From Porticoccus sp. W117 (GTDB taxonomy: Bacteria; Pseudomonadota; Gammaproteobacteria; Pseudomonadales; Porticoccaceae): DNA of 64,000 nt. The position numbers and the translations under genes were made by a program. The first letter of the stretch is position 1; each line of letters opens with the position of its first letter. Shown here piece after piece: positions 21,828 through 54,273 of the stretch. The DNA is taken from contig NZ_JATAAF010000007.1 of assembly GCF_030341905.1 (NCBI RefSeq), positions 62,001 to 126,000 on the forward strand, written 5' to 3'. Under the pieces are notes generated by a model. The model searched no databases. It was not told the origin of the DNA and saw only the letters and a list, made by a program, of their open reading frames with translations.

Positions 21828-21938
21828 GGGCCTTAGGCTGGTAAAGCTTTTCAGACACGCTGTGAATACCTCCCTGTAAGCTCCTTGGCCGCTATCCCTG
21901 CGGCCAAAGGTCTGAAAAGCTTCACCAGCCCAAGACCC
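21828..21938 (-). repeat. Nested inverted-repeat element, copy C
   Basis: Outer arms 21828-21856 and 21910-21938 pair over 29 bp with three mismatches, all G-U wobbles when read on the minus strand. Inside is an 8-bp hairpin TTGGCCGC/GCGGCCAA with loop TATCCCT (21885-21907) and the variant linker whose minus strand reads GAGCTTACAGGGAGGTATT then CACAGCGTGTC. It lies 33 bp upstream of the dual-ATPase start codon, inside the opp-like operon. Shares 34 identical bases with copy G. Confidence 0.95.
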
Positions 21939-21954
21939 TATTGCGGAGCTCGAA

Positions 21955-22064
21955 GGTATGAATAGAGGGTTGTCTGCTATGACCGCCGCCAGCATGGATG
22001 CTGGCGACGAGCCTACAGGGATGTATTTACGGCGTGTCATAGCAGACAACCCTCTGTTCATGCC
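21955..22064 (+). repeat. Nested inverted-repeat element, copy D
   Basis: Outer arms 21955-21983 and 22036-22064 pair over 29 bp with two mismatches, both U-G wobbles on the plus strand. Inner hairpin CGCCAGC-ATGGAT-GCTGGCG (21987-22006) and TACAGGGATGTA (22014-22025) are followed by ACGGCGTGTC. It lies 16 bp from copy C in opposite orientation and 11 bp past the oppC stop codon. Confidence 0.95.
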
Positions 22065-22075
22065 GGATGGAGAAA

Positions 22076-22957
22076 TCAATCCTTACTTGCCTTCGGGTCC
22101 AGCGCATCACGTAAACCATCACCCAGAAAATTCAAGGCAAATAACGTGATGGAAAGTGCCAACCCCGGGAAGATCAACAACCAGGGATATTCTTCCATGG
22201 TTTCCACGCCGTAGTTAATCAACAGACCCCACGAACTCTCTGGTGGCTGGATGCCGAGGCCCAGGAAACTCAAAAATGCTTCCAGCAACATCACATTGGG
22301 GATGGTAAGAGTGGTGTAAACAATCACCGGCCCCAGGGTGTTGGGAATGATATGGCGATGAAGGATCGCCCAGCGGGACAGGCCGATGGCAGTGGCCGCT
22401 TCCACAAATTCCTGATGACGGAGATTCTGTACCTGGCCTCGCACAATGCGGGCCATGGTCAGCCACTCCACCGCGCCGATAGCGAGAAACAGCAGCAGAA
22501 TATTTTTGCCGAATATCACCATCAGCAAAATAATAAAAATCATAAAGGGCAGTGCGTAGAGAATATCCACAAAGCGCATCATGGCAGCGTCAATGCGGCC
22601 CCCCGCATAGCCAGCAATAGCGCCGTACAGCACGCCGATAAGCAGCGCCACGCCGGTAGCCACAAACCCCACGGCCAACGATACACGGCCGCCGTACAGA
22701 ATACGGGTGAGCAGGTCACGGCCAAAGGTGTCGGTACCCAACCAGTGATCCCATGAAGGTGGGGTGGCGCCCAGTTCCAGATTCTGCAGGTCGTAAGGGT
22801 AAGGGGCAAGCCAGGGCGTCAGCAGAGATACCACGACCAGCAGGGAAAGCACCCCGAGGCCAAACAGTGCCAGACGGTTTTTGCCCAATCGTACCCAGGC
22901 GTCTTGCCACAGGCTGGTGCCTTTTTCAGCGGGCAGTGTGGATGTGGTGGTACTCAT
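22076..22957 (-). CDS. oppC: Peptide ABC transporter permease, OppC type
   Basis: Inner-membrane permease of 293 residues with an N-terminal OppC_N-type helix (LALFGLGVLSLLVVVSLL), the LGTDTFGRDLLTR signature, about six transmembrane helices and the EAA loop EFVEAATAIGLSRWAILHRH that contacts the ATPase. It ends in NFLGDGLRDALDPKASKD, typical of OppC/DppC. ATG at 22957 overlaps the oppB stop (ATGA) and has GGGGAGCAG upstream; an in-frame ATG at 23002 inside oppB is less likely. Peptide specificity cannot be predicted. Confidence 0.94.
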   Translation of the reverse strand: MSTTTSTLPAEKGTSLWQDAWVRLGKNRLALFGLGVLSLLVVVSLLTPWLAPYPYDLQNLELGATPPSWDHWLGTDTFGRDLLTRILYGGRVSLAVGFVATGVALLIGVLYGAIAGYAGGRIDAAMMRFVDILYALPFMIFIILLMVIFGKNILLLFLAIGAVEWLTMARIVRGQVQNLRHQEFVEAATAIGLSRWAILHRHIIPNTLGPVIVYTTLTIPNVMLLEAFLSFLGLGIQPPESSWGLLINYGVETMEEYPWLLIFPGLALSITLFALNFLGDGLRDALDPKASKD

Positions 22958-23892
22958 TGGCTGCTCCCCTGATATTGCTGGCGCAGTTTGGGGTTGAGCC
23001 ATACCGAGAGAATGTCTGACAGCAAGTTAAAAACAATAATCAAGGTGGCGAACAGTACGGTTGTGCCCATAATCAAGGTGTAGTCACGATTAAACGCGCC
23101 CTGAACGTAGAGACGCCCCATGCCGGGTATCTGGAAGACGGTTTCCACAACGAAGGAGCCGGACAGCAACCCGGCGAAAGCGGGCCCCAGAAACGCAACT
23201 ACCGGGATCAGGCCGCCTCGCAGTCCGTGCTTGAAGACAATGCGCCATTCCGGCAAGCCTTTGGCGCGGGCGGTGCGAATGTAATCCTGAGACATCACCT
23301 CCAGCATGCCGCCGCGGGACAGGCGTGCTACATAGGCGGCGTAGGCGGCACCCAGAGTGATTGCGGGTAGAATTTTATCGCCGGGTATCACCCCCCAGCC
23401 GGAAATCGGTAGCCAGTCCAGCCACAGCCCGAATACCAAAACTAACAGCGGCCCCAACAGAAAGGACGGCATGCAAATGCCCATCATGGCCACTGACATG
23501 GGCACATAGTCCTGGGCGCTGTTGGGGCGCAGCGCTGCAAATACCCCAGCGCTCACACCAATCAGTACCGCCACCAACATGGCGTAAATACCCAACTCGG
23601 CGGTGGCAGGCAAACCGGCAGCGATCAGTTCATTCACCGTGCGACCCACGTATTTGAAAGAAGGGCCAAACTCCCCTTGCAGCAGGTTGCCAAGGTAACT
23701 GACATACTGCTGCCATACAGGTTTGTCCAGCCCGTAGAGGGCTGTTAGCTCGGCGTACACTTCCGGAGGCATAGCCTTGTCGGAGGCTAGCGGGTCACCG
23801 GGGGCGGCGCGCACCAGGAAGAACGTTAAAGTCACCACTGCAAACAACACCGGTATGGCCTGGAGCAGTCGTATCAAGGTAAATCGCAACAT
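22954..23892 (-). CDS. oppB: Peptide ABC transporter permease, OppB type
   Basis: Inner-membrane permease, 312 residues, six predicted transmembrane helices beginning with TLIRLLQAIPVLFAVVTLTF. Family marks are APGDPL, the periplasmic loop LDKPVWQQYVSYLGNLLQGE, the EAA loop DYIRTARAKGLPEWRIVFKH and the C-terminal SDILSVWLNPKLR. ATG at 23892 follows the oppA stop by 3 bp, and the stop overlaps oppC, so oppA-B-C are tightly coupled. Confidence 0.94.
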   Translation of the reverse strand: MLRFTLIRLLQAIPVLFAVVTLTFFLVRAAPGDPLASDKAMPPEVYAELTALYGLDKPVWQQYVSYLGNLLQGEFGPSFKYVGRTVNELIAAGLPATAELGIYAMLVAVLIGVSAGVFAALRPNSAQDYVPMSVAMMGICMPSFLLGPLLVLVFGLWLDWLPISGWGVIPGDKILPAITLGAAYAAYVARLSRGGMLEVMSQDYIRTARAKGLPEWRIVFKHGLRGGLIPVVAFLGPAFAGLLSGSFVVETVFQIPGMGRLYVQGAFNRDYTLIMGTTVLFATLIIVFNLLSDILSVWLNPKLRQQYQGSSQ

Positions 23893-23895
23893 TAA

Positions 23896-25551
23896 TTACT
23901 GCTCGCTGTCAGGGTTTGGTTCGGGTTCAAGGTAAAAGTGGCTGAAGAATGGGCGATCCAGTAGGTTCGAGCTAAACCCCTTCAAAGAAGGATCTACCAG
24001 GTGACGAGTGGCGTAGGTGTAAATGGGAATGGCTGGCACTTCATCGAGAAGAATTTTTTCTGCTTTCATTAACAGATTGTGGCGCTCCTCGCGGCTGGTG
24101 GCCTGGGGTGCCTGTTCCAGCACCAGGCGATCGTATTCCGGGTTGTGCCAGCCGGTACGGTTGTTGCCACCGTCTTTGATCCACATATCCAGAAAGGTAT
24201 TGGGATCCAAATAGTCACCGATCCAGGAGGCGCGGGATATTTGAAATTTCCCACGTTTTTCCGAATCCAGATATACCTTCCAGTCTTCGTTGCGCAGGAT
24301 GATGTTGATATTCAGCTCCTTTTTCCACATTTGCTGAACAGCCACGGCAATTTTACGGTGAGTTTCTTTGGTGTTGTAAAGCACTTCCAGAGAATCGATA
24401 CCTTCGCCGTTGGGGTATCCCGCTTCTGCCAGCAGCTCCCGAGCCCGTTCAGGGTCGTAAATGAGGCTGGACTCGGCACTGTAACCGGCGGTGTTTGGTG
24501 GCGTAATGGTGTACGCGGGCAATTGCCCCTGTTTGGTAATGCGTTCAACAATTTTCTGGCGGTCTATAGCCAGCGCTAGCGCCCGTCGTACTTTTGGATC
24601 ATTCAAGGGCTTTATGCGGGTATTAAGGCGATAAAAATAGGTGCCGAGGTAGGGCTGGTTGCGCAATTGCTGCGGTGCATTTGTGCGGTAGAACTCGGTT
24701 TTATCGGCGGGTAATTCGTAGGTGTAGTGCAGCTGGTTGGCGCGAAACATTCGCTCCTCGGTGGTGACGTTTTCCGTGGGCAGAAAGCGAATACCGTTAA
24801 GGGCAACCTCATCTGCCTTGTGGTAGTGAGGATTTTTATCCACCGCAATATAGTTAAACAGCTTCCATTCCGATAACTGAAAGGCACCGTTACTGACCAT
24901 ATTGCCGGGTCGCGTCCAATGGCTGCCGCGCTTCCATGGGTCGCCGTGAGCTTCGATAGCGTTGCGAGGTACCGGGTAATAACTGTGGTGGCTGAGCAGG
25001 CCAAGAAAGTAGGGCGTGGGGTTTTCCAACTGAATTTGCAAAGTGTGGGAGTCAATAACGCGAATACCGACTTCATCAAAATTGCTGATGTCACCGCGCA
25101 GATAGGGCGTGGCGTTTTTGATGGGGTAATACATATAGCTGTACTGGTTGCCCAGCTTGGGGTGCATGGCGCGCCACAGGCTCCAGCGAAAATCTTCGGC
25201 GGTCACCGGCTCGCCATCAGACCAACGCGCCTTGGGGTTTAAATAAAATGTGTAGGTGGTGCCGTCATCACTGACCTGCCAACGCTGCGCGACACCGGGC
25301 GCTGGCTCCAGAGTTTCCGGGTGACTGTTTACCAAGGGCTCGAACAGCGCTTCCTGAATATAGGACTCCGGTACGCCGGTGGTTATATGGGGGTCAAGTT
25401 CCTGGGGTTCGGTGCCATTACCCCAATAGAGAATTCCCTCTCGGTTACCCCGCTCCACATTGGTTTCGCCAGCGCTGCAGGCAGTGAGTAACACCAATAG
25501 GGCAACGGCAACAGCAGGCACAAGGCGTTGTGCCGATAGAGATAGATTCAC
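23896..25551 (-). CDS. oppA: Periplasmic peptide-binding lipoprotein, OppA type
   Basis: Family 5 solute-binding protein of 551 residues that captures peptides for the OppBC importer. It has a lipoprotein signal with lipobox LLTAC (Cys25) and Ser at +2, implying lipid anchoring rather than a free periplasmic protein as in E. coli. OppA-like features: GTEPQELDPHITTGVPESYI, WSDGEPVTAEDFRWSL, GNQYSYMYYPIKNA and YLDPNTFLDMW. ATG at 25551. First gene of the operon oppA-oppB-oppC-dual ATPase. The ligand is probably short peptides; murein peptides are an alternative. Confidence 0.93.
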   Translation of the reverse strand: MNLSLSAQRLVPAVAVALLVLLTACSAGETNVERGNREGILYWGNGTEPQELDPHITTGVPESYIQEALFEPLVNSHPETLEPAPGVAQRWQVSDDGTTYTFYLNPKARWSDGEPVTAEDFRWSLWRAMHPKLGNQYSYMYYPIKNATPYLRGDISNFDEVGIRVIDSHTLQIQLENPTPYFLGLLSHHSYYPVPRNAIEAHGDPWKRGSHWTRPGNMVSNGAFQLSEWKLFNYIAVDKNPHYHKADEVALNGIRFLPTENVTTEERMFRANQLHYTYELPADKTEFYRTNAPQQLRNQPYLGTYFYRLNTRIKPLNDPKVRRALALAIDRQKIVERITKQGQLPAYTITPPNTAGYSAESSLIYDPERARELLAEAGYPNGEGIDSLEVLYNTKETHRKIAVAVQQMWKKELNINIILRNEDWKVYLDSEKRGKFQISRASWIGDYLDPNTFLDMWIKDGGNNRTGWHNPEYDRLVLEQAPQATSREERHNLLMKAEKILLDEVPAIPIYTYATRHLVDPSLKGFSSNLLDRPFFSHFYLEPEPNPDSEQ

Positions 25552-25666
25552 GCACCCTCCAAGGAATAATCAGAATAAATATTTGTGCTTATAACGGGTG
25601 ATCCTAACAAAGGTAGACAGGTTTGTGGCCGTTCTGGTTTGTTTTTTTAGTGCTTTCAGTGCAGAT

Positions 25667-25700
25667 ATAAAAACGGCGACCACAGGGCCGCCGTTTTTAT
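25667..25700 (-). terminator. Intrinsic terminator after the S9 peptidase gene
   Basis: Perfect 12-bp arms ATAAAAACGGCG (25667-25678) and CGCCGTTTTTAT (25689-25700) with a 10-nt loop, 26 bp past the peptidase stop. The A/T ends make it functional in either direction, but the upstream side is the oppA promoter region. The remaining 25552-25666 probably holds the oppA promoter; no clear hexamers were assigned. Confidence 0.85.
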
Positions 25701-25725
25701 TAACACTACTGCAAACCTTCAATCA

Positions 25726-27816
25726 TCAGTGATGGCCGCAGCAGCTTTCATGGGAATCGCCAACTTCTCGGGTGCTGGCCAGTGGCGTCGGTTTGGGTTT
25801 TTCCAGCCTTTCCTCATGCTTCAAATCCTGCTCCGGGGGTTTGCCGCCGGGGCCGGTGAGGTAATGATCCATCCAGCGCAGCAGGCGCAGGGAATAGTCG
25901 TACTTGCCACCTACTTTGCGGTTGCCGTGACCTTCGCCGGGATACAACACCAGGCGTACCGGGGCGTTGTTCAGGGTTTTCAGGTAGCGATACATTTCCA
26001 GGGATTGCGCCGGGTGCACTCGTGGGTCTGCTTCGCCGTGCATGATCAGCAGGGGAGTGCGGTGTTTTTGGGCGTGGTAGATGGGGCTGCGTTCCAGCAT
26101 CCACTGGAAGTCGTCCCAGGGCCAGGCGCGGGCGTGTACCAGGTGCATCTCGTTAGGAATATCTGTGGTGCCAAACTTGGACAGTTGATTGGAAATGCCC
26201 ACAAACATCACTGCCGCCTGATAGTGCTCGCTGAGCGCAGTGGAGCTCCAGGCGGTAGCGAAACCGCCGTAGGAACCGCCGGTAATGCCCACCTTGGTGG
26301 GGTCTACCATGCCTTTGTCTACCAGGTAATCTTTACCAGCGACAATGTCGAGGAATTCCGGATCGGCGTAGGCGTGCTGACCTTCTTTGGAAAAATCCAC
26401 GCCACGGCCGGTGCTGCCCCGGTAGTTGGGCCACAGGCTGAAATAGCCCTTGCCAGCGAACACGTGGACGGGCTCGGAATAGCGGCTGTGCCAACCGTTG
26501 GAGATATGAGCTTCCGGGCCGCCGTGAACAAAGTTAATCAGCGGGTATTTTTGCCCTTTTTTGTAATCCAGCGGGTATACCAGGACACCTTGAATTTCAG
26601 TGCCGTCTTCCGCTTTCCAGGTAATGCTCTCCTGCTTGCCGAGAGCAACGTCATCCAACCAGGGGTTGCTGTTGCTGAGGCGGGTCACCTTGCCGCCCTG
26701 ATACCAGAAAGCTTCGCGGGGGTGGTTGGGTGCGTCGGCAACAAAGGCAAAACCACGACCTTTTTTCGGGGTCGACAGAGAGCGCACGATGCGCTTGCCG
26801 GTATTGAGTTTTTTACCCTTGCCCGGTTTGCCGGGGTTGAGGATTACCACTTCGCTGCCGGTACCAATATGGTTGAGGGCGAGCAGGTCGCCGCCGGGCA
26901 GGAATTCAATATCCTGGGTGTGAGCCAATAACCCCGGTTGCAGTTCTGTGGTTTTGCCACTCTTGTAATATTTGACAATGCCTTCGCGAGGGTCGTGGGT
27001 GTCCTGTGAACCGATGTAGGCCACATCATTGCCATTGGGTGCCCAGTGCCCGTTGCCTACTTTGCCGTCGCCATTGAGGGTGGCCTGCACTTTGCCATCG
27101 CTGCCGAGGATAACCACTTTGGGCTTCATCAAGGTGTCGTCTACCAGCGGAGTGGGGGACACATTAGCGATGATGCTGTCGCCTTTGGGGTTCCAGGCGA
27201 TACGCATCAGATGGCCTTCCACTGAGATTTGTTCGGCTTTGGCACCTTCGTTGTTGAGGTTCAGGCGGTACAACTGGTTGTACTTCAGTTGTTCCTCATA
27301 CACTTTCGGCTGGAAACCCTTGGCGATCAGTTTTTCCTGATCTTTTGGCGCTGTGGCGGTGGTCAGCAGCAGTGCGACCCCAGAACCGTTGATGTCGTAG
27401 CCAATAATGTCCGATGTGTGGGTATACACAGGAACAGACTCGCCGCCCCCCAGAGGGATGCGGTAGAGGCTAATAAACTTGTCGTTATAGCGCTTTGCCA
27501 GATAGTAGAGATGCTGGCTGTCTGCAGACCATTTAATGCCGGCTACGTTGACGCTGCCGGAAACAAACGGACGCGAGTTGCCCTGGGTATCACTGATGTG
27601 CAGTTCGCCCCAGTCGGGGCCGTCATCGTCTTTGTAAGGGGTACGCTGTACGCCTTTGGTATAAGCCACCCACTGCCCATCCGGGGAACTGGCGACGGAA
27701 GTCACCTGGGACACTCTGGCAATATCATCCAGAGTCATGGGGCGTTTTTCCGCCAGCGTCCAGGGCGAGGTGAGAAGTGCGCCGACCATGATCAGCGTCG
27801 AGAGTAATTTGGGCAC
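25726..27816 (-). CDS. S9-family prolyl oligopeptidase-like peptidase
   Basis: Exported serine peptidase, 696 residues: signal peptide (LLSTLIMVGALLTSPWTLA), beta-propeller of about 350 residues with WD40-like repeats (SSPDGQWVAYTKG, WSADSQHLYYLAKR, WAPNGNDVAYIGS) and an alpha/beta-hydrolase domain. The triad is visible as Ser in GGSYGGFAT, Asp in HGEADPRVHPAQS and His in GEGHGNRK. It resembles dipeptidyl/acylaminoacyl peptidases. The C-terminus ends unusually in HESCCGHH, a possible metal-binding tail. It lies next to the peptide importer operon (same strand), consistent with a joint role in using external peptides. Confidence 0.92.
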   Translation of the reverse strand: MPKLLSTLIMVGALLTSPWTLAEKRPMTLDDIARVSQVTSVASSPDGQWVAYTKGVQRTPYKDDDGPDWGELHISDTQGNSRPFVSGSVNVAGIKWSADSQHLYYLAKRYNDKFISLYRIPLGGGESVPVYTHTSDIIGYDINGSGVALLLTTATAPKDQEKLIAKGFQPKVYEEQLKYNQLYRLNLNNEGAKAEQISVEGHLMRIAWNPKGDSIIANVSPTPLVDDTLMKPKVVILGSDGKVQATLNGDGKVGNGHWAPNGNDVAYIGSQDTHDPREGIVKYYKSGKTTELQPGLLAHTQDIEFLPGGDLLALNHIGTGSEVVILNPGKPGKGKKLNTGKRIVRSLSTPKKGRGFAFVADAPNHPREAFWYQGGKVTRLSNSNPWLDDVALGKQESITWKAEDGTEIQGVLVYPLDYKKGQKYPLINFVHGGPEAHISNGWHSRYSEPVHVFAGKGYFSLWPNYRGSTGRGVDFSKEGQHAYADPEFLDIVAGKDYLVDKGMVDPTKVGITGGSYGGFATAWSSTALSEHYQAAVMFVGISNQLSKFGTTDIPNEMHLVHARAWPWDDFQWMLERSPIYHAQKHRTPLLIMHGEADPRVHPAQSLEMYRYLKTLNNAPVRLVLYPGEGHGNRKVGGKYDYSLRLLRWMDHYLTGPGGKPPEQDLKHEERLEKPKPTPLASTREVGDSHESCCGHH

Positions 27817-27974
27817 CTGAGTCTCCTTGAAATTACTTTTGGTTATGGTGTTATTTGTTTTTGGAAGGGAGGGTGAGTATACCTCTATTGGCGGTTACAT
27901 GTGGATGGGCTGGTGGTTAAGAAAACATCGCCGTAGCTGTACGGTTTGGTTTGCATAATGCACGTTGCTGGTTC

Positions 27975-28003
27975 TTGATTTGCCCCTTTAAAGCACCCAT
28001 AAT
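27975..28003 (+). promoter_or_regulatory. Sigma-70 promoter of the 4.5S RNA gene
   Basis: TTGATT (27975-27980), 17-nt spacer, CATAAT (27998-28003), followed by a GC-rich discriminator (GCCGCGC), as expected for a growth-regulated stable-RNA promoter. Initiation is predicted about 28010-28018. Confidence 0.75.
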
Positions 28004-28018
28004 GCCGCGCTCTCAATG

Positions 28019-28130
<112 letters not shown>

Positions 28131-28156
28131 CCATTTCCTTGTATAGAATGCCTTTT

Positions 28157-28251
28157 GTGAGATGTGAGACGGAAGATGAGAGACGTAAAGTCCTTATTCA
28201 TTGCCGTTGATTTTGCTCTTCATCTCACGTCTCTCGTCTCCCATCTCTCGC
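28157..28251. repeat. GAGAYG heptad inverted repeat, copy 1
   Basis: Left arm about 28157-28190 and right arm about 28216-28251 are each built of 7-bp units (GAGACG or GAGATG plus one base) repeated about four times and are near reverse complements. It lies between ffs and the dnaX promoter. A second copy is at 30400-30476. Confidence 0.85.
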
Positions 28252-28260
28252 TAATATCCA

Positions 28261-28289
28261 CTGGCAAGTGCCACCTGAACTCTTATAAT
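28261..28289 (+). promoter_or_regulatory. Sigma-70 promoter of dnaX
   Basis: CTGGCA (28261-28266), 17-nt spacer, consensus TATAAT (28284-28289), 35 bp before the dnaX start. The dnaX ribosome site GAAGAGCATGAA lies directly before ATG 28325. Confidence 0.75.
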
Positions 28290-28324
28290 GCTCGCTTCAT
28301 TTATCGAAGACAGAAGAGCATGAA

Positions 28325-30049
28325 ATGAGCTATCAGGTTCTCGCCCGCAAATGGCGCCCGCGTATTTTTCGTGAAATGGCGGGGCAGGAGCATGTGCTGC
28401 AGGCGCTGATTAATGCTCTCGATAACGAGCGGCTACACCACGCCTACCTGTTTACCGGTACCCGTGGGGTGGGTAAAACTACCATTGCACGGATTCTGGC
28501 TAAATGCCTTAACTGCGAACAGGGTGTCAGCTCTACCCCTTGTGGCGAATGCGGCGCCTGTGTGGAAATCGCTGAAGGCCGCTTTGTCGATTTGATTGAG
28601 GTGGATGCGGCGTCACGAACCAAGGTGGAAGACACTCGCGAATTGCTGGAAAACGTTCAGTACGCCCCTACCCGCGGGCGTTTTAAGGTGTACCTGATTG
28701 ACGAAGTGCATATGCTCTCCACGCACTCGTTCAACGCCTTGCTGAAAACTCTGGAAGAGCCGCCCCCCCATGTGAAGTTCCTGCTGGCCACCACCGACCC
28801 GCAAAAGCTGCCGGTAACGATTCTCTCCCGCTGCCTGCAGTTCAATCTGAAAAACCTCAGCCCGGAGCGTATCAGCGAGCACTTGAAGTTTGTGCTTGGC
28901 GAAGAATCCGTACCCTTTGAAGACGCAGCCCTGTGGCAGCTGGCGCGCTCTGCCGATGGCAGTATGCGCGACGCCCTCAGCCTTACCGATCAGGCCATAG
29001 CCCACGGCGGTGGCACCGTGGCAGAGGCGGAAGTCAACGCCATGCTGGGCACCATCGACCGCAGTTGGGTGATGGAGTTGTGCAATGCCATTGCCGACGA
29101 TGATGGCGATCAGGCACTGGCAGTGGTGGCGCGGATGGCGGAGCAGGGGCCGGATTACAATGCGGTACTGGCGGATATGCTGGGCTTTTGGCACCGTGTT
29201 GCCATCGCCCAGACTGTTCCGGAGGCGCTGGATAATCGCCACGGTGACTACCAGCAGGTGACCGAAGTGGCCCAGCGTATGGAGCGGGAAACCGTGCAGC
29301 TGCTTTACCAGATTGCCTTGCTGGGGCGTCGCGATCTGACACTGTCGCCAGACCCGCGCAGTGGTTTTGAAATGGCTCTGTTGCGGCAGCTGGCCTTTAA
29401 GCCCGGTAGCAGCGAAATGCGCCCACCCGCTCAGCAGCAAACCGGGGAGGAACCCCCGGTAAAAAAGCCCCTTAGCCCAACTCCTGACATTGAGCCTGAG
29501 CCCGTTGAGCTCCCAGCTGAGCCTGTGGAGCAGCTTGCTCAGGAGCAGAGCCCAGGCAGCAGTATTCCAGCTGAACCAATTCCACACTCGCAGGAAGTGG
29601 AAAGTGTTCAAGAGAGCAGCCAGCTGACGACTGTTGAATCAGAACCTGAGCCCGCTGCCGGTGGCGAGTTGACTGGAGAGTGGATTGATATCTGCCAGCG
29701 GCTGAAGCTGGGTGGTGTGCTTGGCAATACGGCGGCCAATTTGGTGGTGACCGCAAGGGAAGGCAATAACTTTCAGTTCATCCTCGATGAGGAGTACAGC
29801 TCGCTCTACGAAGAAGGGCAACAACAGCGTTTGGCGGATGCTCTGCAGCAACATTGCGGTAGCCCTTGCCGTGTTGTCATTAAAGTGGGGGCGGTCACTG
29901 GTGATACGCCGCGTAAACACAGCGAACGTCTGCGGGCCGAGCGCATGGCCGCTGCTGTACAGACCATGCGTGACGACCCTTTGGTAAAAGATTTAACTGA
30001 ACAATTGAATGGTCGGCTGCTGGAAGATACCGTGCAGCCGCTGGACTAA
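28325..30049 (+). CDS. dnaX: DNA polymerase III subunits tau and gamma
   Basis: DnaX is the clamp-loader motor; full-length tau also joins polymerase cores and the replicative helicase. The 574-residue product has Walker A GTRGVGKT (about 45-52), a zinc module (CLNCEQ...CGECGAC), Walker B YLIDEVHMLS, sensor SRCLQF and a variable proline/glutamate-rich linker (about 380-450) before the tau-specific C-terminal domain. At 29461-29467 it carries the same A-AAA-AAG slippery heptamer as E. coli, with an upstream GGGGAGG; a -1 slip would give a 383-residue gamma-like product (separate entry). It heads the dnaX-ybaB-recR group. Confidence 0.97.
   Translation: MSYQVLARKWRPRIFREMAGQEHVLQALINALDNERLHHAYLFTGTRGVGKTTIARILAKCLNCEQGVSSTPCGECGACVEIAEGRFVDLIEVDAASRTKVEDTRELLENVQYAPTRGRFKVYLIDEVHMLSTHSFNALLKTLEEPPPHVKFLLATTDPQKLPVTILSRCLQFNLKNLSPERISEHLKFVLGEESVPFEDAALWQLARSADGSMRDALSLTDQAIAHGGGTVAEAEVNAMLGTIDRSWVMELCNAIADDDGDQALAVVARMAEQGPDYNAVLADMLGFWHRVAIAQTVPEALDNRHGDYQQVTEVAQRMERETVQLLYQIALLGRRDLTLSPDPRSGFEMALLRQLAFKPGSSEMRPPAQQQTGEEPPVKKPLSPTPDIEPEPVELPAEPVEQLAQEQSPGSSIPAEPIPHSQEVESVQESSQLTTVESEPEPAAGGELTGEWIDICQRLKLGGVLGNTAANLVVTAREGNNFQFILDEEYSSLYEEGQQQRLADALQQHCGSPCRVVIKVGAVTGDTPRKHSERLRAERMAAAVQTMRDDPLVKDLTEQLNGRLLEDTVQPLD
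29444..29475 (+). promoter_or_regulatory. Predicted programmed -1 frameshift site in dnaX
   Basis: GGGGAGG (29444-29450) acts as a Shine-Dalgarno-like stimulator exactly 10 nt before A-AAA-AAG (29461-29467). In the -1 frame two codons (GCC, CCT) lead to TAG at 29473-29475. The resulting protein would stop after residue 383, just past clamp-loader domain III. E. coli dnaX uses the same heptamer and the same 10-nt spacing. No strong downstream hairpin is obvious; CCTGAGC (29495) could pair with GCTCAGG (29537). Confidence 0.8.
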
Positions 30050-30076
30050 TTACCAAGAAAGGCAGAGGTAGACAGT

Positions 30077-30397
30077 ATGAAAGGCCTGAACGATTTAATG
30101 AAACAAGCCCAGCAGATGCAGGAGCGCATGCAGCAAATGCAGGAAGAAGCGGCTAATGCGGAAGTGGAAGGGCAGTCCGGTGCCGGTATGGTTAAGGTCA
30201 CCATGACTGGTCGCCACGATGTGCGCAAAGTGCAGATCGACCCGGATTTATTAACTGAAGACAAAGAAATGCTGGAAGATCTGTTGGCCGCAGCCATCAA
30301 CGATGCTGTGCGCAAAGTTGAAGCTGCCAGCAAAGACAAAATGTCAGAGCTGACCGCCGGCATGCAAATGCCGCCGGGTTTTAAAATGCCGTTTTAA
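30077..30397 (+). CDS. ybaB: Nucleoid-associated protein YbaB/EbfC
   Basis: Small dimeric DNA-binding protein (106 residues) with the family's tweezer-like fold. It shows the N-terminal coiled helix [20 protein letters not shown], the core [20 protein letters not shown] and the C-terminal helix with [11 protein letters not shown]. The tail [12 protein letters not shown] is family-typical. It lies 27 bp after dnaX and before recR, the universal arrangement, and is likely co-transcribed with dnaX. Confidence 0.96.
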
Positions 30398-30399
30398 AA

Positions 30400-30476
30400 T
30401 GGGAGACGAAAGATGAGAGACGGGAGATGGGTTCAGCACAGTCCCACGTCTCTCGTTTCCCATCTCTCATCTCCCA
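30400..30476. repeat. GAGAYG heptad inverted repeat, copy 2
   Basis: Left arm about 30400-30430 (GGGAGACGAAAGATGAGAG onward) and right arm about 30443-30476 are near reverse complements made of 7-bp GAGAYG units. It sits in the 95-bp gap between ybaB and recR, just before the recR ribosome site, so a transcribed hairpin could modulate recR expression. Confidence 0.88.
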
Positions 30477-30492
30477 AAACCGGAGGTTTTAA

Positions 30493-31086
30493 TTGTTCGG
30501 AAGCCTGATTGACGAACTCATCGACGCCCTGAGACAGCTCCCTGGCGTCGGTCCCAAATCCGCCCAGCGTATGGCGCTGCAGTTGCTGGAACGCAATCGC
30601 TCCGGTGGCGCGCGCCTGGCAAAAGCCCTGGATGCTGCCATGGAAGGAGTGGGGCGCTGTCGTCAGTGTCGTACCTTTGCAGAGAGTGAGCTTTGCACCA
30701 TTTGCGATAGCCCGCGACGTGACCCCAGCCAACTGTGCGTACTGGAAACTCCCGTCGATCTGTTTGCCATTGAACAGGCGGGCACTTACCGAGGGCGTTA
30801 TTTTGTGTTGATGGGCCACCTGTCACCCATCGATGGTGTTGGCCCGGAGCAACTGGGAATCAATCAATTGATGGAACAACTGCAAGGCGGTGAAGTAAAA
30901 GAGTTGATTCTTGCCACCAATCTCACCGTTGAAGGGGAGGCCACCGCCCACTTTATCAGTGAGCGGGCCAAGCCCCACGGCGTCACCGTCAGTCGCATCG
31001 CCCACGGTGTGCCCCTTGGAGGCGAGCTGGAATACGTGGATGGCGGCACCCTGGCCCACGCTTTTACCTCTCGCAAGCCTCTGTAA
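30493..31086 (+). CDS. recR: Recombination protein RecR
   Basis: RecR works with RecF and RecO to load RecA on gapped DNA. The 197-residue protein has the helix-hairpin-helix [20 protein letters not shown], a four-cysteine zinc finger (CRQC...CTIC), a Toprim domain ([15 protein letters not shown], then [16 protein letters not shown]) and the C-terminal [19 protein letters not shown] at 30493 is the start: GGAGG at 30482-30486 is well spaced and no ATG lies near the conserved N-terminus. Confidence 0.96.
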
Positions 31087-31110
31087 GTTGGTAGTGGGTA
31101 GCGGGTTGTT

Positions 31111-32253: not shown

Positions 32254-32308
32254 AATTCCTATTCGTGAAAGTCCTATCCGTGAAATTGCTCTCCGTGAGA
32301 TTCATATG
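32249..32308 (+). repeat. Four 15-bp tandem repeats spanning rnd stop and ycgL start
   Basis: Units at 32249, 32264, 32279 and 32294, each beginning CGTGARA and diverged at a few positions, e.g. CGTGAAATTCCTATT and CGTGAAAGTCCTATC. The first contains the rnd stop codon and the last contains the ycgL ATG (32306). Read in the ycgL frame they encode RE(I/S)(P/A)(I/L) repeats, although no start codon precedes them in that frame. Confidence 0.85.
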
Positions 32309-32596
32309 AAAACCCTCTGCACCATTTACAAAAGCCCCCACGAGGATGAGCTTTACCTGTATGTGGATCACCGCGACCAACTGAGTCGGGTGCCCGAGGC
32401 GCTGCTGGAAAAATTCGGCACCCCACAACGGGTAACCACACTACCGCTGACGCCAGAGCGAAAACTGGCCAGAGCGGACACGGCAAAAGTGTTGGCGTCC
32501 ATCGGTGAAAATGGCTATTACTTGCAATTGCCGCCTGCCAAAGAGGACTATATGCAGGAGGTCAACCAGCACAACCACAAACTGGCGGGCAGATAA
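32306..32596 (+). CDS. ycgL: YcgL domain-containing protein
   Basis: Small cytosolic protein (96 residues) of the YcgL family, unknown function, often next to rnd and ycgN in gammaproteobacteria as here. Matches include the N-terminal TLCTIYKSPHEDELYLYVDH, FGTPQRVTTLPLTPERKLAR and GYYLQLPP with a C-terminal helix. The frame stays open upstream to 31865, but that segment overlaps rnd and the tandem repeats; ATG 32306 is the family start. GTGAG about 8 nt upstream is a weak ribosome site. Confidence 0.92.
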   Translation: MKTLCTIYKSPHEDELYLYVDHRDQLSRVPEALLEKFGTPQRVTTLPLTPERKLARADTAKVLASIGENGYYLQLPPAKEDYMQEVNQHNHKLAGR

Positions 32597-32607
32597 GAGG
32601 GCGAGCG

Positions 32608-35893: not shown

Positions 35894-35999
35894 GATAGGG
35901 CTGGGTAGTTACTTCAGAAAACGCTGCGAGTACATCCATGTAAGCTCGTCGACAGCATCCATGCTGTCGGCGTTTCTGAAGCAACTACCCAGCCTTATC
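35894..35999 (-). repeat. Nested inverted-repeat element, copy E
   Basis: Outer arms 35894-35920 and 35973-35999 pair over 27 bp with two mismatches and continue for 3 bp across a bulged A. Minus-strand reading gives hairpin CGACAGC-ATGGAT-GCTGTCG, then GAGCTTACATGGATGTACT and CGCAGCGT. It begins 19 bp after the 7TM gene stop. Confidence 0.93.
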
Positions 36000-36022: not shown

Positions 36023-36128
36023 AGGTGTGTCAGGTGCTCTTTCCCAGACCGTCTGCGGCATGGATGCCGCAGAAGAGCCTACATGGATGTATTCACGGCG
36101 TGTCTGGGAAAGAGTGCCTGGCGCGCCT
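36023..36128 (+). repeat. Nested inverted-repeat element, copy F
   Basis: Outer arms 36023-36049 and 36102-36128 pair over 27 bp with five mismatches, every one a G-U or U-G wobble on the plus strand. Inner hairpin TCTGCGGC-ATGGAT-GCCGCAGA and TACATGGATGTA (36080-36091) precede ACGGCGTGTC. It ends 7 bp before the GGAGG ribosome site of the ATP-grasp gene. Confidence 0.95.
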
Positions 36129-43090: not shown

Positions 43091-43123
43091 GTTGTGGGTT
43101 TCGCGAAACTCGAAACCCGCAAC
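43091..43123 (-). terminator. Hairpin after tex
   Basis: Arms of 13 bp, GTTGTGGGTTTCG (43091) and CGAAACCCGCAAC (43111), with one wobble and a 7-nt loop, 10 bp past the tex stop on the minus strand. A T-rich run follows about 15 nt later rather than immediately, so it is a weak or atypical terminator. Confidence 0.6.
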
Positions 43124-43132
43124 TCGAAACGT

Positions 43133-45472: not shown

Positions 45473-45578
45473 AGGTAAAGCGGGCCGTTTGGAAATAGAA
45501 AGGCGGCGATTATTAACCAAACCGGTGGCATCAGGTAGTCTTGTATTTGCCCGGTAACTGTGTTTTTACTGCACAACC

Positions 45579-46229
45579 ATGAGTCCTACCTATTGCCCAC
45601 TTTGTCATAGCCCTGATATTCAGTCCTACAGCCGGGATAAAAGCCGCCACTACCTGAATTGCCAACAGTGCCAGCTGGTGTTTGTGCCCACTGAACAACA
45701 CCTGAGTGCCGAGCAAGAGAAAGCGGTATACGACCTCCATCAAAACGAGATCCACGATGCTGGCTATCGCCGTTTTTTAAGTCGCCTTTACACACCATTG
45801 ATAGAGCGTTTGCCTGCGGGCGCTCAGGGGCTGGATTTTGGCTGTGGCCCCGGCCCGGCGCTGGCGGAAATGTTTCGTGAAGTGTGCTATCCAGTCAATC
45901 TGTATGATTGTTTTTACCATCCCAACCGAAACGCTCTGGAAAAACAGTACGATTTTATTGTCGCTACCGAGGTGGTGGAGCACTTGTCACAGCCGGGGTT
46001 GGAGCTTCAGCGCCTGTGGCAACTGCTAAAACCGAATGGTTGGCTGGGGCTGATGACCAAACTGGTTATCGACCTAGAGGCTTTTAACAGTTGGCACTAC
46101 AAAAACGATTTAACCCATATCTGCTTCTTCAGTCGTGCCACATTCGTCTGGCTGGCGGGGCAGTGGGGCGCTACGGTGGAATTTGCCGGTAGTGATGTCA
46201 TTTTGTTGCACAAACCAGCGGCTGAATAA
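45579..46229 (+). CDS. Zinc-ribbon class I SAM methyltransferase
   Basis: Predicted methyltransferase of 216 residues. An N-terminal four-cysteine zinc ribbon (YCPLCHSPDI...LNCQQCQLVF) precedes the SAM-binding motif I LDFGCGPGPALAEMF and post-motif region IVATEVVEHLSQPGLELQRL. Family members methylate varied small molecules or proteins; the substrate is not evident. ATG 45579. Adjacent to tex (divergent) and fadB (same strand, 121 bp later), with no functional link seen. Confidence 0.85.
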   Translation: MSPTYCPLCHSPDIQSYSRDKSRHYLNCQQCQLVFVPTEQHLSAEQEKAVYDLHQNEIHDAGYRRFLSRLYTPLIERLPAGAQGLDFGCGPGPALAEMFREVCYPVNLYDCFYHPNRNALEKQYDFIVATEVVEHLSQPGLELQRLWQLLKPNGWLGLMTKLVIDLEAFNSWHYKNDLTHICFFSRATFVWLAGQWGATVEFAGSDVILLHKPAAE

Positions 46230-46350
46230 AACCACTGAGTCACAAACAAGGTAGCCAATATTTACGAAACCGTGGTCGTATTTCTGGTCACGGAAGGGAA
46301 ATTCCCCTTACACTCAACCCGTTATAACAGAAACCCGATGGAAACCAGTT

Positions 46351-49697
<3,347 letters not shown>

Positions 49698-49734
49698 TTT
49701 GAACCATTGGCGTGAAAACCATCTACTACTTGGG

Positions 49735-49805
49735 TTTCCAGACACGCTGTAAACGCTTCCCAGTGCGCTCCTTGGCCGCTATCCCTGCGGCCAAAGGTCT
49801 GGAAA
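49735..49805 (-). repeat. Nested inverted-repeat element, copy G (short or degenerate)
   Basis: Outer arms of only 9 bp (TTTCCAGAC at 49735-49743, GTCTGGAAA ending 49805) enclose the hairpin TTGGCCGC/GCGGCCAA and a changed linker. It shares 34 identical bases (49768-49801) with copy C (21881-21914). It lies 38 bp after fadA. Confidence 0.88.
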
Positions 49806-49855
49806 GGCACCGCCGGCTCCTGATTGCCACACAACCCAACAAACCGAACTCAAAC

Positions 49856-49886
49856 AAAAACGCCCCACCAATTGGCGGGGCGTTTT
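49856..49886. terminator. Bidirectional terminator between fadA and the small lipoprotein gene
   Basis: AAAACGCCCC (from 49857) and GGGGCGTTTT (ending 49886) form a strong stem, with a palindromic CCAATTGG centre, T-run on both strands. It serves fadBA on plus and the lipoprotein gene on minus, which ends 18 bp away. Confidence 0.92.
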
Positions 49887-49903
49887 AAGGTCAGTATGTT
49901 ATT

Positions 49904-50224
49904 TTACTGCGGGTGACCCAGCTCATTGAGCTTATCGCCAAGCTCGTCGGCTTTCTCTTCGGCAGCGTCTTTCATTTCTTCTATCTTATCTTCTGCGGCT
50001 TCTTGGACTTCCTCTACTTTCTCTTTGGCTGCGTCCATGGCTTCCTCACCGGCGGCCTTACCTTGCTCAACCAGATCGTTGGCGGTGTTGGCCGCATCCT
50101 GAGCGCTGCTTTCAATGCTGCTGGCTGCTTCATTGGATGATGTATTGGTGGTGCTGTCGCCGCTGCATGCGGTGAGCAGGGCTGCCAAACCAATAAAAGT
50201 CATAAAAGTGATTAAGTTTTTCAT
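49904..50224 (-). CDS. Small helical lipoprotein
   Basis: Lipoprotein of 106 residues with lipobox LLTAC (Cys20, Ser at +2) and then a low-complexity helical segment rich in A, E, D and K (QDAANTANDLVEQGKAAGEE, MDAAKEKVEEVQEAAEDKIE) that should form a coiled coil. This resembles small periplasmic or outer-membrane lipoproteins of the YtxH/apolipophorin-like sort; function unknown. ATG 50224 has GGGGATAACC upstream and is preferred over the in-frame ATG at 50236. Separated from fadA by a shared terminator. Confidence 0.85.
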   Translation of the reverse strand: MKNLITFMTFIGLAALLTACSGDSTTNTSSNEAASSIESSAQDAANTANDLVEQGKAAGEEAMDAAKEKVEEVQEAAEDKIEEMKDAAEEKADELGDKLNELGHPQ

Positions 50225-50317
50225 GGTTATCCCCATTGTAATCAGTTTGTTACATTTAAAACCTCGCCTGTCTTCGCAGGCCTGTTTGCACCTGAATCCT
50301 AGCTGAAAATTGAGCGG

Positions 50318-50346
50318 TTGCCCAGTGGCAGTGCCTGTGGCAAAAT
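50318..50346 (+). promoter_or_regulatory. Promoter of tRNA-Leu
   Basis: TTGCCC (50318-50323), 17-nt spacer, CAAAAT (50341-50346). The transcript would start about 50353. A GCCCCC/GGGGGC hairpin with T6 in its loop (50349-50368) overlaps the start region; significance unknown. Confidence 0.55.
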
Positions 50347-50392
50347 CTGCCCCCTTTTTTGCGGGGGCCTAACCGCCAGGCTGCCGTAAAGC

Positions 50393-50477
<85 letters not shown>

Positions 50478-50531
50478 TTTTATCGGGCCTCCACGGCCTT
50501 ACATGAGAAAGCAATACGCTAGAGGAACAAC

Positions 50532-51875
50532 ATGCAGGTTTCCATTGAAACAACTTCCGGCCTTGAACGTCGCCTGACCGTAGAGGTTCCCGCCGAGCGC
50601 ATCGACAGTGCCGTAGACGCCCGTCTGCAAAAAGAGGCCAAGACCATCAAAATGAATGGCTTCCGCAAGGGCAAGGTGCCTTTCAAGGTGGTTAAGCAGC
50701 GTTACGGCAAGTACGTGCGTCAGGAAGTTATGGGCGAAGTAGTGAGCCAGTCTTTCTACGAAGCGGTTTCACAGGAAAAACTGCGCCCGGCGGGCCAGCC
50801 GTCTTTTGAACCCCTGAAAGGTGAAGAAGGCGAAAACCTGGAGTATGTAGCTACTTTTGAGGTTTATCCTGAGGTGGCGCTGGGAGATCTGTCCAAAATT
50901 GAGGTGTCGAAGCCGGTGGCGGAAGTCAACGATGAAGACATCGATAAAATGATTTCTGTATTGCGTGAACAACAGTCCAGCTGGAGTGCCGTTGAGCGCG
51001 CCGCGGAAGACGGCGATCAGGCCAATATCGATTTCACCGGCACCAAAGACGGTGAAGAGTTCGCCGGTGGTAAAGGTGAAGGTTACAACATCGTTCTGGG
51101 CTCCAAGCAGATGATCCCGGGTTTTGAAGACGCCATCGTTGGCATGTCTGTCGGTGACGAGAAAACCGTACCGTTGACCTTTCCGGAGGACTACCACGCG
51201 GAAGAGCTGAAAGGCGCCGACGTTGAGTTTGCTATCAAACTGAACGAAGTGTCTGAGCGTCAGCTGGCTGAGCTAAATGACGAGTTCTTCGTCGCCTATG
51301 GTGTTAGTGAAGGCGGTGAGGAGAAATTCCGTGAGGAAGTGCGCAACAATATGGAGCGCGAGCTGAAAAACGCCGTCAACAACAAAGTGAAAAACCGGGT
51401 GATGGAAGAACTGGCCAAGCTGCACGAAGTGGAGCTGCCAAAATCACTGGTGAGCGGAGAGATTCAAGGCCTCAAACAGCAGATGTTGCAACAGTACGGC
51501 GGTGGCCAGCAGCAGAATATTGACCTGTCTGTATTGCCGGACGACATGTTCCAGGCTCAGGCAGAGCGTCGCGTTACCCTGGGGCTGATTGTTGCCGAAG
51601 TAGTAAAAGCCAACGAAATCAGCGCCGATGCTGATCGCGTACGTGCCCAGGTGGACGAAATCGCCAGCACTTACGAGCAGCCGGAGCAAGTGGTTGAGTA
51701 CTACTACGCCAATCCACAACTGCTGGATGGCATTCAGTCTGCGGTACTGGAAGAGCAGGTAGTGGAGCACATTCTGGAAGGTGCCAACGTGAAGGAAGAG
51801 GCGGTTTCCTATGAAGATGCGCTGAAGCCAGATGCTCAACCGCAGGCAGAAGCGTCGGAACAAGCCGACGACTGA
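50532..51875 (+). CDS. tig: Trigger factor
   Basis: Ribosome-associated chaperone with peptidyl-prolyl isomerase activity, 447 residues. Domains: N-terminal ribosome-binding domain with signature GFRKGKVPFKVVKQRYG (about 37-53), FKBP-type PPIase (about 150-240; NIDFTGTKDGEEFAGGKGEG) and C-terminal chaperone cradle, ending in an acidic tail (ASEQADD). ATG 50532 has AGAGGAACAAC upstream. First of tig-clpP-clpX-lon; a strong terminator follows, so clpP has its own promoter. Confidence 0.97.
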   Translation: MQVSIETTSGLERRLTVEVPAERIDSAVDARLQKEAKTIKMNGFRKGKVPFKVVKQRYGKYVRQEVMGEVVSQSFYEAVSQEKLRPAGQPSFEPLKGEEGENLEYVATFEVYPEVALGDLSKIEVSKPVAEVNDEDIDKMISVLREQQSSWSAVERAAEDGDQANIDFTGTKDGEEFAGGKGEGYNIVLGSKQMIPGFEDAIVGMSVGDEKTVPLTFPEDYHAEELKGADVEFAIKLNEVSERQLAELNDEFFVAYGVSEGGEEKFREEVRNNMERELKNAVNNKVKNRVMEELAKLHEVELPKSLVSGEIQGLKQQMLQQYGGGQQQNIDLSVLPDDMFQAQAERRVTLGLIVAEVVKANEISADADRVRAQVDEIASTYEQPEQVVEYYYANPQLLDGIQSAVLEEQVVEHILEGANVKEEAVSYEDALKPDAQPQAEASEQADD

Positions 51876-51893
51876 TAGCTGGTGGATGTATGG

Positions 51894-51927
51894 AAAGGCG
51901 AGCTGGTAATACCAGCTCGCCTTTTTT
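51894..51927 (+). terminator. Rho-independent terminator after tig
   Basis: AAAGGCGAGCTGG (51894-51906) and CCAGCTCGCCTTTTTT (51912-51927) form a perfect stem with a short TAATA loop and six T, 19 bp past the tig stop. Confidence 0.95.
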
Positions 51928-52029
51928 GTAATCTGTAGATTCTGTGCGTTCCCTTTGCCCGGCAACAGGGCTAAAATGCCTCAACTTCCATGCCCTGCGC
52001 CTTCCAAGTTCTTACCAGGATATTAAAGA

Positions 52030-52665
52030 ATGATAAATAAAGTTCCTCCTTTTGCTAATAATCCACTAGATGTACAAAATGTCGGCCTGGTGCCCATGGT
52101 GGTGGAGCAAACTTCCCGCGGCGAGCGCTCCTACGATATTTACTCCCGCCTGCTGAAAGAGCGGGTAATCTTCCTGGTGGGCCCGGTGGAAGACCACATG
52201 GCCAACCTGATTGTGGCGCAAATGTTGTTCCTGGAATCTGAGAACCCGGACAAAGACATCCACCTTTACATCAACTCACCCGGCGGCTCGGTAACTGCTG
52301 GCCTGTCCATCTACGACACCATGCAGTTTATCAAGCCGGATGTGAGCACCATGTGCATTGGTCAGGCGGCCAGTATGGGTGCCTTCCTGTTGTCGGCGGG
52401 TGCTGAAGGTAAGCGCTATGGACTGCCCAATTGCCGTACCATGATTCACCAGCCCAGCGGTGGTGCCCAGGGGCAGGCTACAGATATTCAGATTCAGGCC
52501 GAAGAAATACTAAAGCTGAAGCAACGCCTTAATGAAATCATGGCCAAACATACTGGTCAGGAGCTTGATAAAATCGTTGCTGATACCGAGCGAGACAACT
52601 TTATGAGCGCTCAGGAGTCCATGGAATATGGTCTGATTGATCAGGTTCTGGACAAGCGCCCTTAG
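52030..52665 (+). CDS. clpP: ATP-dependent Clp protease proteolytic subunit ClpP
   Basis: Serine protease subunit forming a tetradecamer capped by ClpX (next gene) or ClpA. 211 residues with propeptide-like N-terminus and catalytic Ser115 in GQAASMGAF, His140 in RTMIHQPSG and Asp189 in ADTERDNF, all intact. [16 protein letters not shown] is the hydrophobic dimer region. ATG 52030. A 93-bp gap separates it from clpX. Confidence 0.97.
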
Positions 52666-52758
52666 AATCGCTAGTCTGGTTCCAATTGTCTTGATAATGT
52701 TTTTGTAACATTTTGTTTTATAAAGATTTTTCTACAGCTTGAATGCGGGAAATACAGT

Positions 52759-54048
52759 ATGACCAAAGAAACCACAGGCGACGACGACAACGGCAAGCTG
52801 CTGTATTGTTCGTTCTGCGGTAAAAGTCAGCACGAAGTGCGCAAACTGATCGCCGGTCCTTCGGTGTTCATTTGCGACGAGTGTGTCGACCTTTGTAACG
52901 ACATCATCTCCGAGGAAGTTCAGGAGACAGAAGGGGAACCGGTTCGCGACGAGCTGCCCACTCCAGCGGAAATCAATGGCTCTCTGGACCAGTACGTTAT
53001 CGGCCAGAAGCGCGCCAAGAAGATTCTCTCCGTAGCGGTCTACAACCACTACAAGCGCTTGCAGAGCGACGGCAAAGGTTTTAACGGCGACGTTGAGCTG
53101 GGCAAGAGTAATATCCTGCTGGTGGGCCCAACCGGTAGCGGTAAAACCCTGTTGGCTGACACACTTGCCCGCTTGCTGGATGTGCCCTTTACCATTGCTG
53201 ACGCTACCACCCTGACCGAAGCGGGTTATGTGGGTGAGGATGTTGAGAACATCATCCAGAAGCTGCTGCAACGCTGTGATTACGATGTGGAGAAGGCTCA
53301 GCGAGGCATTGTTTACATCGATGAGATCGACAAGATCTCCCGCAAGTCAGACAACCCATCTATTACCCGTGACGTTTCTGGCGAAGGCGTTCAGCAGGCG
53401 CTGTTGAAACTGATTGAAGGTACCGTTGCTTCGGTTCCTCCTCAGGGCGGCCGCAAGCATCCTCAGCAGGAATTCCTGCAGGTGGACACTTCCAATATCC
53501 TGTTTATTTGTGGTGGCGCTTTTGCCGGCCTGGAAAAGGTAATTCGCGAACGCTCGGAGAAAGGTGGTATCGGCTTTAGTGCTGAAGTGAAGTCGAAAGA
53601 TGAGCAGGCGAGCATCGGAGCAACTCTGGCAGATGTGGAGCCAGACGATCTGGTGCGCTTTGGTTTGATCCCTGAGTTTGTTGGTCGCCTGCCAGTAACT
53701 GCCACTCTGGAAGAGCTGGATAAAGACGCTCTGGTCAGCATTCTGGTGGAACCCAAGAATTCTCTCAGCAAGCAATACGGTGCGCTGTTTGAGATGGAAG
53801 GGGTGGAGCTGGATATTCGTGCCGACGCTCTGGAAGCCATCGCAGAGAAAGCCCTGGAACGCAAAACTGGCGCCCGTGGCCTGCGCTCCATTATGGAAAA
53901 CACCCTGCTGGAAACCATGTACGACATTCCCTCCAAAGAGAATGTGCGCAAAGTGGTCATTGATGCGGCGGTGATTTCTGGTGAGTCTGAACCGTTGTTG
54001 GTTTACGAGACTGTAGAGCAACCCAAGGCGGCAGGTAGCGAAGAATAA
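52759..54048 (+). CDS. clpX: ATP-dependent Clp protease ATP-binding subunit ClpX
   Basis: AAA+ unfoldase for ClpP, 429 residues. N-terminal zinc-binding domain ([25 protein letters not shown]), Walker A GPTGSGKT, Walker [11 protein letters not shown], pore loop AGYVGED and RKH-type loop [19 protein letters not shown] are present, as is the IGF-like ClpP-contact region ([12 protein letters not shown]). ATG 52759. Followed by its own terminator and nested repeat H before lon. Confidence 0.97.
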
Positions 54049-54068
54049 AGCTACTCCGCAAGCAATCG

Positions 54069-54103
54069 AAAATGCCAGTCAGCGAAAGCGGCTGGCATTT
54101 TTT
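54069..54103 (+). terminator. Rho-independent terminator after clpX
   Basis: AAAATGCCAG (54069-54078) and CTGGCATTTTTT (54092-54103) pair around a GAAA-containing loop, 20 bp past clpX. Ends the clpPX transcript before nested repeat H. Confidence 0.93.
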
Positions 54104-54179
54104 ATATCTCTCTGTTTTGGAGCCGAGCATGGGCAGGCTGTGCCGAAATGTATCGATTCTCCTCGATATAAGCTATCGG

Positions 54180-54273
54180 CTCTTAGCCACCTTCTGTGAC
54201 CGTGGCCAGCAGGGATGCTGGCGACGAGCCTCCACGGATGGATTTACGGCGTGTCACAGAAGGTGGCTAAGGG
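54180..54273 (+). repeat. Nested inverted-repeat element, copy H
   Basis: Outer arms 54180-54200 and 54253-54273 pair over 21 bp with a single U-G wobble. Inner hairpin GCCAGC-AGGGAT-GCTGGC (54205-54222), then TCCACGGATGGA (54231-54242), which keeps pairing although both arms differ from TACA/TGTA in other copies. It lies between the clpX terminator and the lon promoter; the 334-bp gap is thereby explained. Confidence 0.95.

Follow-up and report, generated by a model that had tools for sequence, protein, structure and literature searches.

Outer-stem mismatches of a dispersed two-hairpin repeat in Gammaproteobacteria point to a strand-specific folded molecule with CsrA-type loops

The 64,000-nt stretch of Porticoccus sp. 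W117 DNA analysed here as a whole (the window) contains copies of a dispersed repeat in which a variable outer stem encloses two hairpins, and the mismatches of this stem lie predominantly in one direction, being G-U rather than A-C when the strand with the conserved linker (the linker strand) is read. In fact, among 329 unique copies pooled from many genomes, 371 of 420 transitions give G-U and 49 give A-C, and purine-purine mismatches on the linker strand outnumber pyrimidine-pyrimidine ones by 199 to 49. Strand-symmetric explanations fail on both asymmetries, and a strand-specific folded molecule is strongly supported. These counts also support an earlier sequence-only reading of the window, which had proposed a folded RNA or one single-stranded DNA (ssDNA) strand and not a symmetric DNA hairpin. 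The best reading of the folded strand is an RNA that docks a CsrA dimer, for which we see about even chances.

The wobble counts beyond the window were made on the linker strand with a stem extension rule that penalises all mismatches equally, and copies with a stem shorter than 15 bp were excluded (6 of 60 in the own genome, that of Porticoccus sp. W117; 10 of 40 in G001 and 1 of 23 in G002, both of the same genus; 3 of 28 in G010, of the same family; and 14 of 108 in the named loci). In the own genome (3.28 Mb), nhmmer found 60 distinct copies and cmsearch 62 matches, one of them weak and on the opposite strand. The 54 copies counted gave 69 G-U and 10 A-C (binomial p 5.5e-12), far from 50:50, and the direction that had been noticed in the window is thus that of the whole genome. 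The relatives gave 23:3 in G001 (30 of 40 fetched copies), 36:6 in G002 (22 of 23) and 27:1 in G010 (25 of 28 fetched copies from a genome that holds at least 145). Moreover, a pattern scan of a named collection returned at least 119 stretches, 80 of which were turned into loci, with titles including Xanthomonas, Stenotrophomonas, Microbulbifer, Marinobacter, Shewanella and Haliea; here 94 copies in 64 loci gave 150 G-U and 14 A-C. When each of these 64 loci was given one vote, 46 went towards G-U and 3 towards A-C, while the other 15 were tied or cast no vote. Covariance models have a preference for G-U, and the count was therefore made again on copies picked out by the linker pattern, in which the stem was never used for selection; it gave 43:7 in the own genome (33 copies) and 92:11 in the named loci (70 copies, 64 loci). 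These copies keep the bias, therefore the pairing model is not its source. Isolated mismatches were distributed as GT/AC 171:26, GG/CC 18:1, AG/CT 32:15 and AA/TT 16:5, the AA excess fitting neither the RNA nor the DNA parameter set. A-A also exceeds T-T (40:17) among all mismatches of the 329 unique copies, which RNA or DNA energies do not explain.

The copies in the window were listed by cmsearch, which gave seven, one of them degraded; the unit is 106–111 nt long in five window copies. The copies below were checked by a stem recount and, for A, C, D, H and the degraded copy, by folding; the two hairpins of copy D were read from its sequence.

9126..9231, plus strand: copy A, outer stem of 27 bp with one C-T mismatch; core 9150-9207
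21828..21938, minus strand: copy C, outer stem of 29 bp with three G-U and no other mismatch; divergent partner of D
21955..22064, plus strand: copy D, outer stem of 29 bp with two G-U and no other mismatch; core 21981-22038
21984..22009, plus strand: hairpin 1 of copy D, loop ATGGAT closed by C-G, GGA at 21996-21998; a CsrA/RsmE-type ANGGAN hexaloop
22011..22033, plus strand: hairpin 2 of copy D, CTACAGGGATGTA, GGA at 22019-22021, 20 nt past that of hairpin 1
35894..35999, minus strand: copy E, outer stem of 27 bp with one G-U and one A-C; divergent partner of F
36023..36128, plus strand: copy F, outer stem of 27 bp with five G-U and no other mismatch
49735..49805, minus strand: degraded copy, core retained, outer stem down to 9 bp
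54172..54281, plus strand: copy H, pairs 1-19 perfect, four G-U and one G-G up to pair 29

When recounted to the limits used by the sequence-only reading, 12 of the 13 transitions in the window become G-U on the linker strand, as it had claimed (C 3 of 3, D 2 of 2, F 5 of 5, E 1 of 2). It was also right that C is inverted relative to D and yet both carry the wobble on the linker strand (three G-U in C on the minus strand, two in D on the plus strand), and that copy A has a single transversion, the C-T above. For copy H, which it had scored as one of one, the G-U at pair 20 following 19 perfect pairs stands, but the count was incomplete, as the pairs up to 29 add three G-U and one G-G. The tally with all of copy H is 15 of 16 transitions. 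The degraded copy may correspond to its label G, which, like B, it does not place. CsrA-type loops had no place in its account.

The fold itself was examined in an alignment of 30 own copies, which has 37 pairs with 96.7% of cells paired. Of these pairs, 29 were found to have changed on both sides, with 305 double-change cells versus 82 in shuffles, and slid registers lower the paired cells to 34–43%. The outer stem measures 25–29 bp in 47 of the 54 own-genome copies and covaries while its sequence is variable; it encloses the two hairpins H1 and H2. Among 217 distinct cores, H1 was called in 201 (16 without) and H2 in 204 (13 without). The 179 six-nucleotide H1 loops follow C-A-N-GGA-N-G, with C in 174, A in 177, the three bases of GGA in 178, 177 and 178, and the closing G in 174; both N positions take all four bases, T being the commonest. 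The equivalent positions of H2 loops are kept in 179 to 194 of 204, a range that includes some out-of-frame rows produced by the first-match rule. The distance from GGA to GGA is nearly fixed, being 20 nt in 289 of the 314 copies with exactly two CANGGA and 19, 21 or 32 nt in the others. Own-genome variants include one class with one extra loop base and a third form with a longer H2. In two copies of the same-family genome G010 (L180:5370-5600 and L186:1341-1450), the hairpin loops are interrupted, as judged by eye, by a smaller two-hairpin element with GGA in its loops.

Copies are not independent of one another; separate changes were counted by nearest neighbour. The polarity of each mismatch was taken, with no tree, from the nearest other copy that is paired at that position and has at most 6 differences, which gave 100 changes towards G-U and 12 towards A-C. 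G-U originated by C>T in 59 cases and by A>G in 41, and A-C by G>A in 6 and by T>C in 6; limits of 10 and 14 differences gave a similar direction. For both of two opposite transitions, the excess lies on the side that preserves the fold of the linker strand. Since C>T and A>G both yield G-U, one-way mutation does not explain the bias.

The same filter is seen in place. At several syntenic loci of the own genome and the same-genus G002 the element is still present, and five aligned stems from orthologous same-genus loci show 10 single changes between Watson-Crick and G-U and one between Watson-Crick and A-C, besides double changes that compensate each other and mismatches of other kinds at four positions (the mis-registered pair L105/L148 was left out, and the outer pairs of L030/L175 are partly out of register). 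At L111/L152, where the flanks are 95–96% identical, the two genomes hold elements of different type. In Stenotrophomonas, 13 loci share one flank; 11 of the 13 have both orientations, the plus copies fall into two types (one in 5 loci, the other in 8), and the matches to the query cluster within a dispersed stretch of about 290 bp. An empty site was sought at one slot, L022 (G000:C54:158055-158315 against G002:C1:362310-362565, G000 being the own genome): the own genome has a divergent pair there, and G002 a different nested long palindrome.

As for distribution, 14 of 29 genomes (the own and 28 around it) are carriers with 1 to at least 145 copies, including 46 in G001, 24 in G002, 20 in G018 and one each in G012 and G020, and others of the same family have none. 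In a survey of 398 genomes of the phylum, at least 27 carriers were called, an under-call since the best 10 candidates per genome were scored, and all 27 belong to the own class. We further surveyed 18 named genomes, all picked for having a match, with the best 150 candidates scored in each. Three Xanthomonas genomes have at least 150 copies and one has 141; Stenotrophomonas maltophilia D457 has 101 and SJTL3 122, Microbulbifer 136 and 114, Marinobacter 91 and 66, Shewanella carassii 24 and Salinivibrio 3. Copies are mostly intergenic by a crude open reading frame (ORF) call and often lie tens of bases from an ORF end. Tandem arrays in the same orientation were seen at L374 (G299; six copies, one every ~227 bp) and L202 (four, one every ~180 bp). 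The window also has two diverged repeats, each with a G/A-rich and a C/T-rich stretch, at 28155-28249 and 30392-30468 (families D7 and D9), the former directly after the signal recognition particle (SRP) RNA (28027-28123).

The hairpin tips suggest a ligand. According to a review (PMC7652899), the RsmE-bound hairpin has an ANGGAN hexanucleotide loop, and CsrA bridges two sites at a distance of 10–63 nt, most favourably above 18 nt; in a biophysical model, one homodimer is assigned ANGGA sites 10–55 nt apart (PMC6028588). A study of Pseudomonas putida cites RUACARGGAUGU in loops of short hairpins (PMC7937890), from which, as the CsrA SELEX (in vitro selection) consensus, hairpin 2 of copy D (CTACAGGGATGTA) differs by one base. 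In the repeat, ANGGA stands in a hairpin loop, with GGA kept in at least 177 of the 179 six-nucleotide H1 loops at each position, and two such sites stand 20 nt apart in 289 of 314 copies. Judged by these motifs, the loops and their spacing match the published CsrA/RsmE site and bridging distance. CsrA itself is present in 27 of the 29 genomes around the own one, all 14 carriers included, and in all 27 called carriers of the phylum survey (220 of 398 genomes overall), so that 40 of 40 carriers checked are positive, the own genome being counted in both sets. Among the matches listed, the element was called in none of the 20 class members without CsrA. One carrier, G228, has nine CsrA-family matches.

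These repeats form one dispersed intergenic family in which every copy acts as a folded single strand: the outer stem of about 27 bp, variable but strictly paired, bears a three-way junction and two hairpins, usually with C-ANGGAN-G tips. We propose that this strand is RNA and that one CsrA/RsmA homodimer would dock on both loops. The copies could then be a distributed CsrA-binding reservoir, or CsrA-held points within read-through transcripts. Transcription of the linker strand, binding by CsrA and any effect on the cell are what we infer here. A wider proposal, which we put forward tentatively and with clearly less confidence than the docking itself, is that Gammaproteobacteria including Xanthomonas, Stenotrophomonas, Marinobacter and Microbulbifer may harbour a mobile RNA module for one CsrA dimer in tens to at least 150 dispersed copies, which together would make a genome-wide reservoir tunable by copy number, in which divergent pairs, where present, would ensure a sense copy whichever way transcription runs.

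Several observations weigh against an RNA that docks CsrA. The putative link to CsrA is drawn from the motif, and CsrA is common in the class, therefore its presence in carriers is weak evidence; 104 class genomes have it (a count of printed rows) and 27 of them are called carriers. GGA is not enriched in loops of other hairpins in the window (3 of 66). Searched with a simple consensus, sigma-70-like sites were not clearly in excess on either side of the element, though other promoter types are possible. The preference for A-G over C-T mismatches fits DNA energy parameters better than RNA ones. In the orientation test, in which 100 of 106 copies were placed between two ORFs of a crude caller, lone copies showed no sense bias to their predicted neighbours, as 25 lie sense and 39 antisense to both of these, and the asymmetry was 41:4 in copies sense to both flanking predicted genes and 56:12 in those antisense to both. 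That antisense copies keep 56:12 is unexpected for a purely cis mRNA element. A cis-acting role in adjacent genes, as a 3' UTR (untranslated region) stabiliser, an attenuator or a terminator, would agree with the mostly intergenic position, often tens of bases from an ORF end, and with the occurrence of CsrA sites in mRNAs, but the absence of a sense bias and the strong wobble bias of antisense copies make it improbable. Moreover, the 12 nt that follow the right arm contain four consecutive T in 0 of 54 own-genome copies, therefore the element is not an intrinsic terminator.

Sequence alone does not decide between RNA and ssDNA, and the chief alternative is a non-autonomous mobile element, whose linker strand would be recognised as an ssDNA hairpin by a transposase or integrase that tolerates G-T but not A-C; the loops would be landmarks for the enzyme and the divergent pairs the mobile unit. 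We consider it rather unlikely, though the most serious of the alternatives. It would account for the patchy copy number in relatives (0 to at least 145), the divergent pairs and the ~290-bp dispersed stretch in Stenotrophomonas, the change of element type between species at one orthologous locus, and an asymmetry that is independent of predicted flanking transcription; the purine-purine excess and the preference for A-G over C-T also agree with DNA energies. However, in a test that covered the PF01797 family, this Y1 transposase was found in 9 of 14 carriers and in 7 of 15 non-carriers, so that its presence does not follow that of the element, and it was unmatched in G001, G002 and G018 with their 46, 24 and 20 copies. 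RAYT/Y1 transposase as the driver was rejected on this ground. Two gene-sized intervals between divergent copies contain no obvious transposase by eye, no family search having been made: L313 has one ORF, and L257 has ORFs that we take to be dehydrogenase-like and thioredoxin-like. The element is also rare or absent where mobile carriers were searched, with no match in phage (one query), none and one weak partial match in plasmids (two queries; the match is in a 1.8-Mb Halomonas record); a search of 2.9 million viral contigs by exact pattern gave 2 stretches. Finally, selection for mobility would not by itself call for the filtering of changes that is still seen at orthologous loci.

Two explanations dispense with a selected fold. 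Long DNA palindromes are known to undergo template-switch correction, and such switching in replication could copy arm into arm; the arms do change fast and in register between orthologous loci. There is, however, no evident reason why correction should leave G-T in place and erase A-C on the element's own strand in any orientation, the conserved ANGGAN loops would be left unexplained, and with the 371:49 asymmetry we regard it as very improbable. Strand-biased mutation, for example deamination of C on an exposed linker strand, is the least credible of all: C>T is indeed the commonest route to G-U (59), but A>G exceeds T>C by 41 to 6 just as C>T exceeds G>A by 59 to 6, and pair changes on both sides are abundant.

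Should CsrA bind these repeats, the number of targets and decoys of a global regulator would depend in part on a repeat family that varies from 0 to at least 145 copies within one bacterial family. Even if the ligand is a transposase on ssDNA, the direction of wobble offers a sequence-only test of the functional strand of a repeat, with a large family to which it can be applied.

No Rfam family overlaps the element at gathering score in the window or 14 loci (three matches were far below it), and no description of it was found in open-licence literature as judged by title and start of abstract. With CsrA/RsmA/RsmE hairpins and the CsrB/RsmZ sponges the element shares ANGGAN loops, mostly closed by C-G, and two sites 20 nt apart, within bridging range. 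Sponges described so far, two proposed ones included, are RNA genes that carry from several to many sites, whereas here one two-site module with a long variable stem and no clear promoter signal is repeated tens to at least 100 times per genome. With REP, BIME and REPIN sequences and their RAYT it shares dispersed intergenic palindromes, inverted or alternating pairs and patchy copy number. REPs are described as a GT(A/G)G head with a short palindrome of 20–30 nt (PMC2817692). The present unit, in contrast, has 106–111 nt, two conserved loops and variable arms, and its consensus core begins GACC. A cognate RAYT gene is a further mark of REP/REPIN systems, and PF01797 is matched in nine carriers but not in G001, G002, G018, G012 and G020; because of its length and this lack in several carriers, the element falls outside the definition of REP. 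ERIC and similar long imperfect palindromic repeats are about 100 bp, intergenic, foldable and conserved in sequence throughout, whereas the arms of this element change in pairs and its loops are conserved. Integron attC sites, which act as strand-specific folded ssDNA with a variable stem sequence, may resemble it as well. Taken together, the element would function as a hairpin with two docking sites for CsrA and shares the dispersal of a REP.

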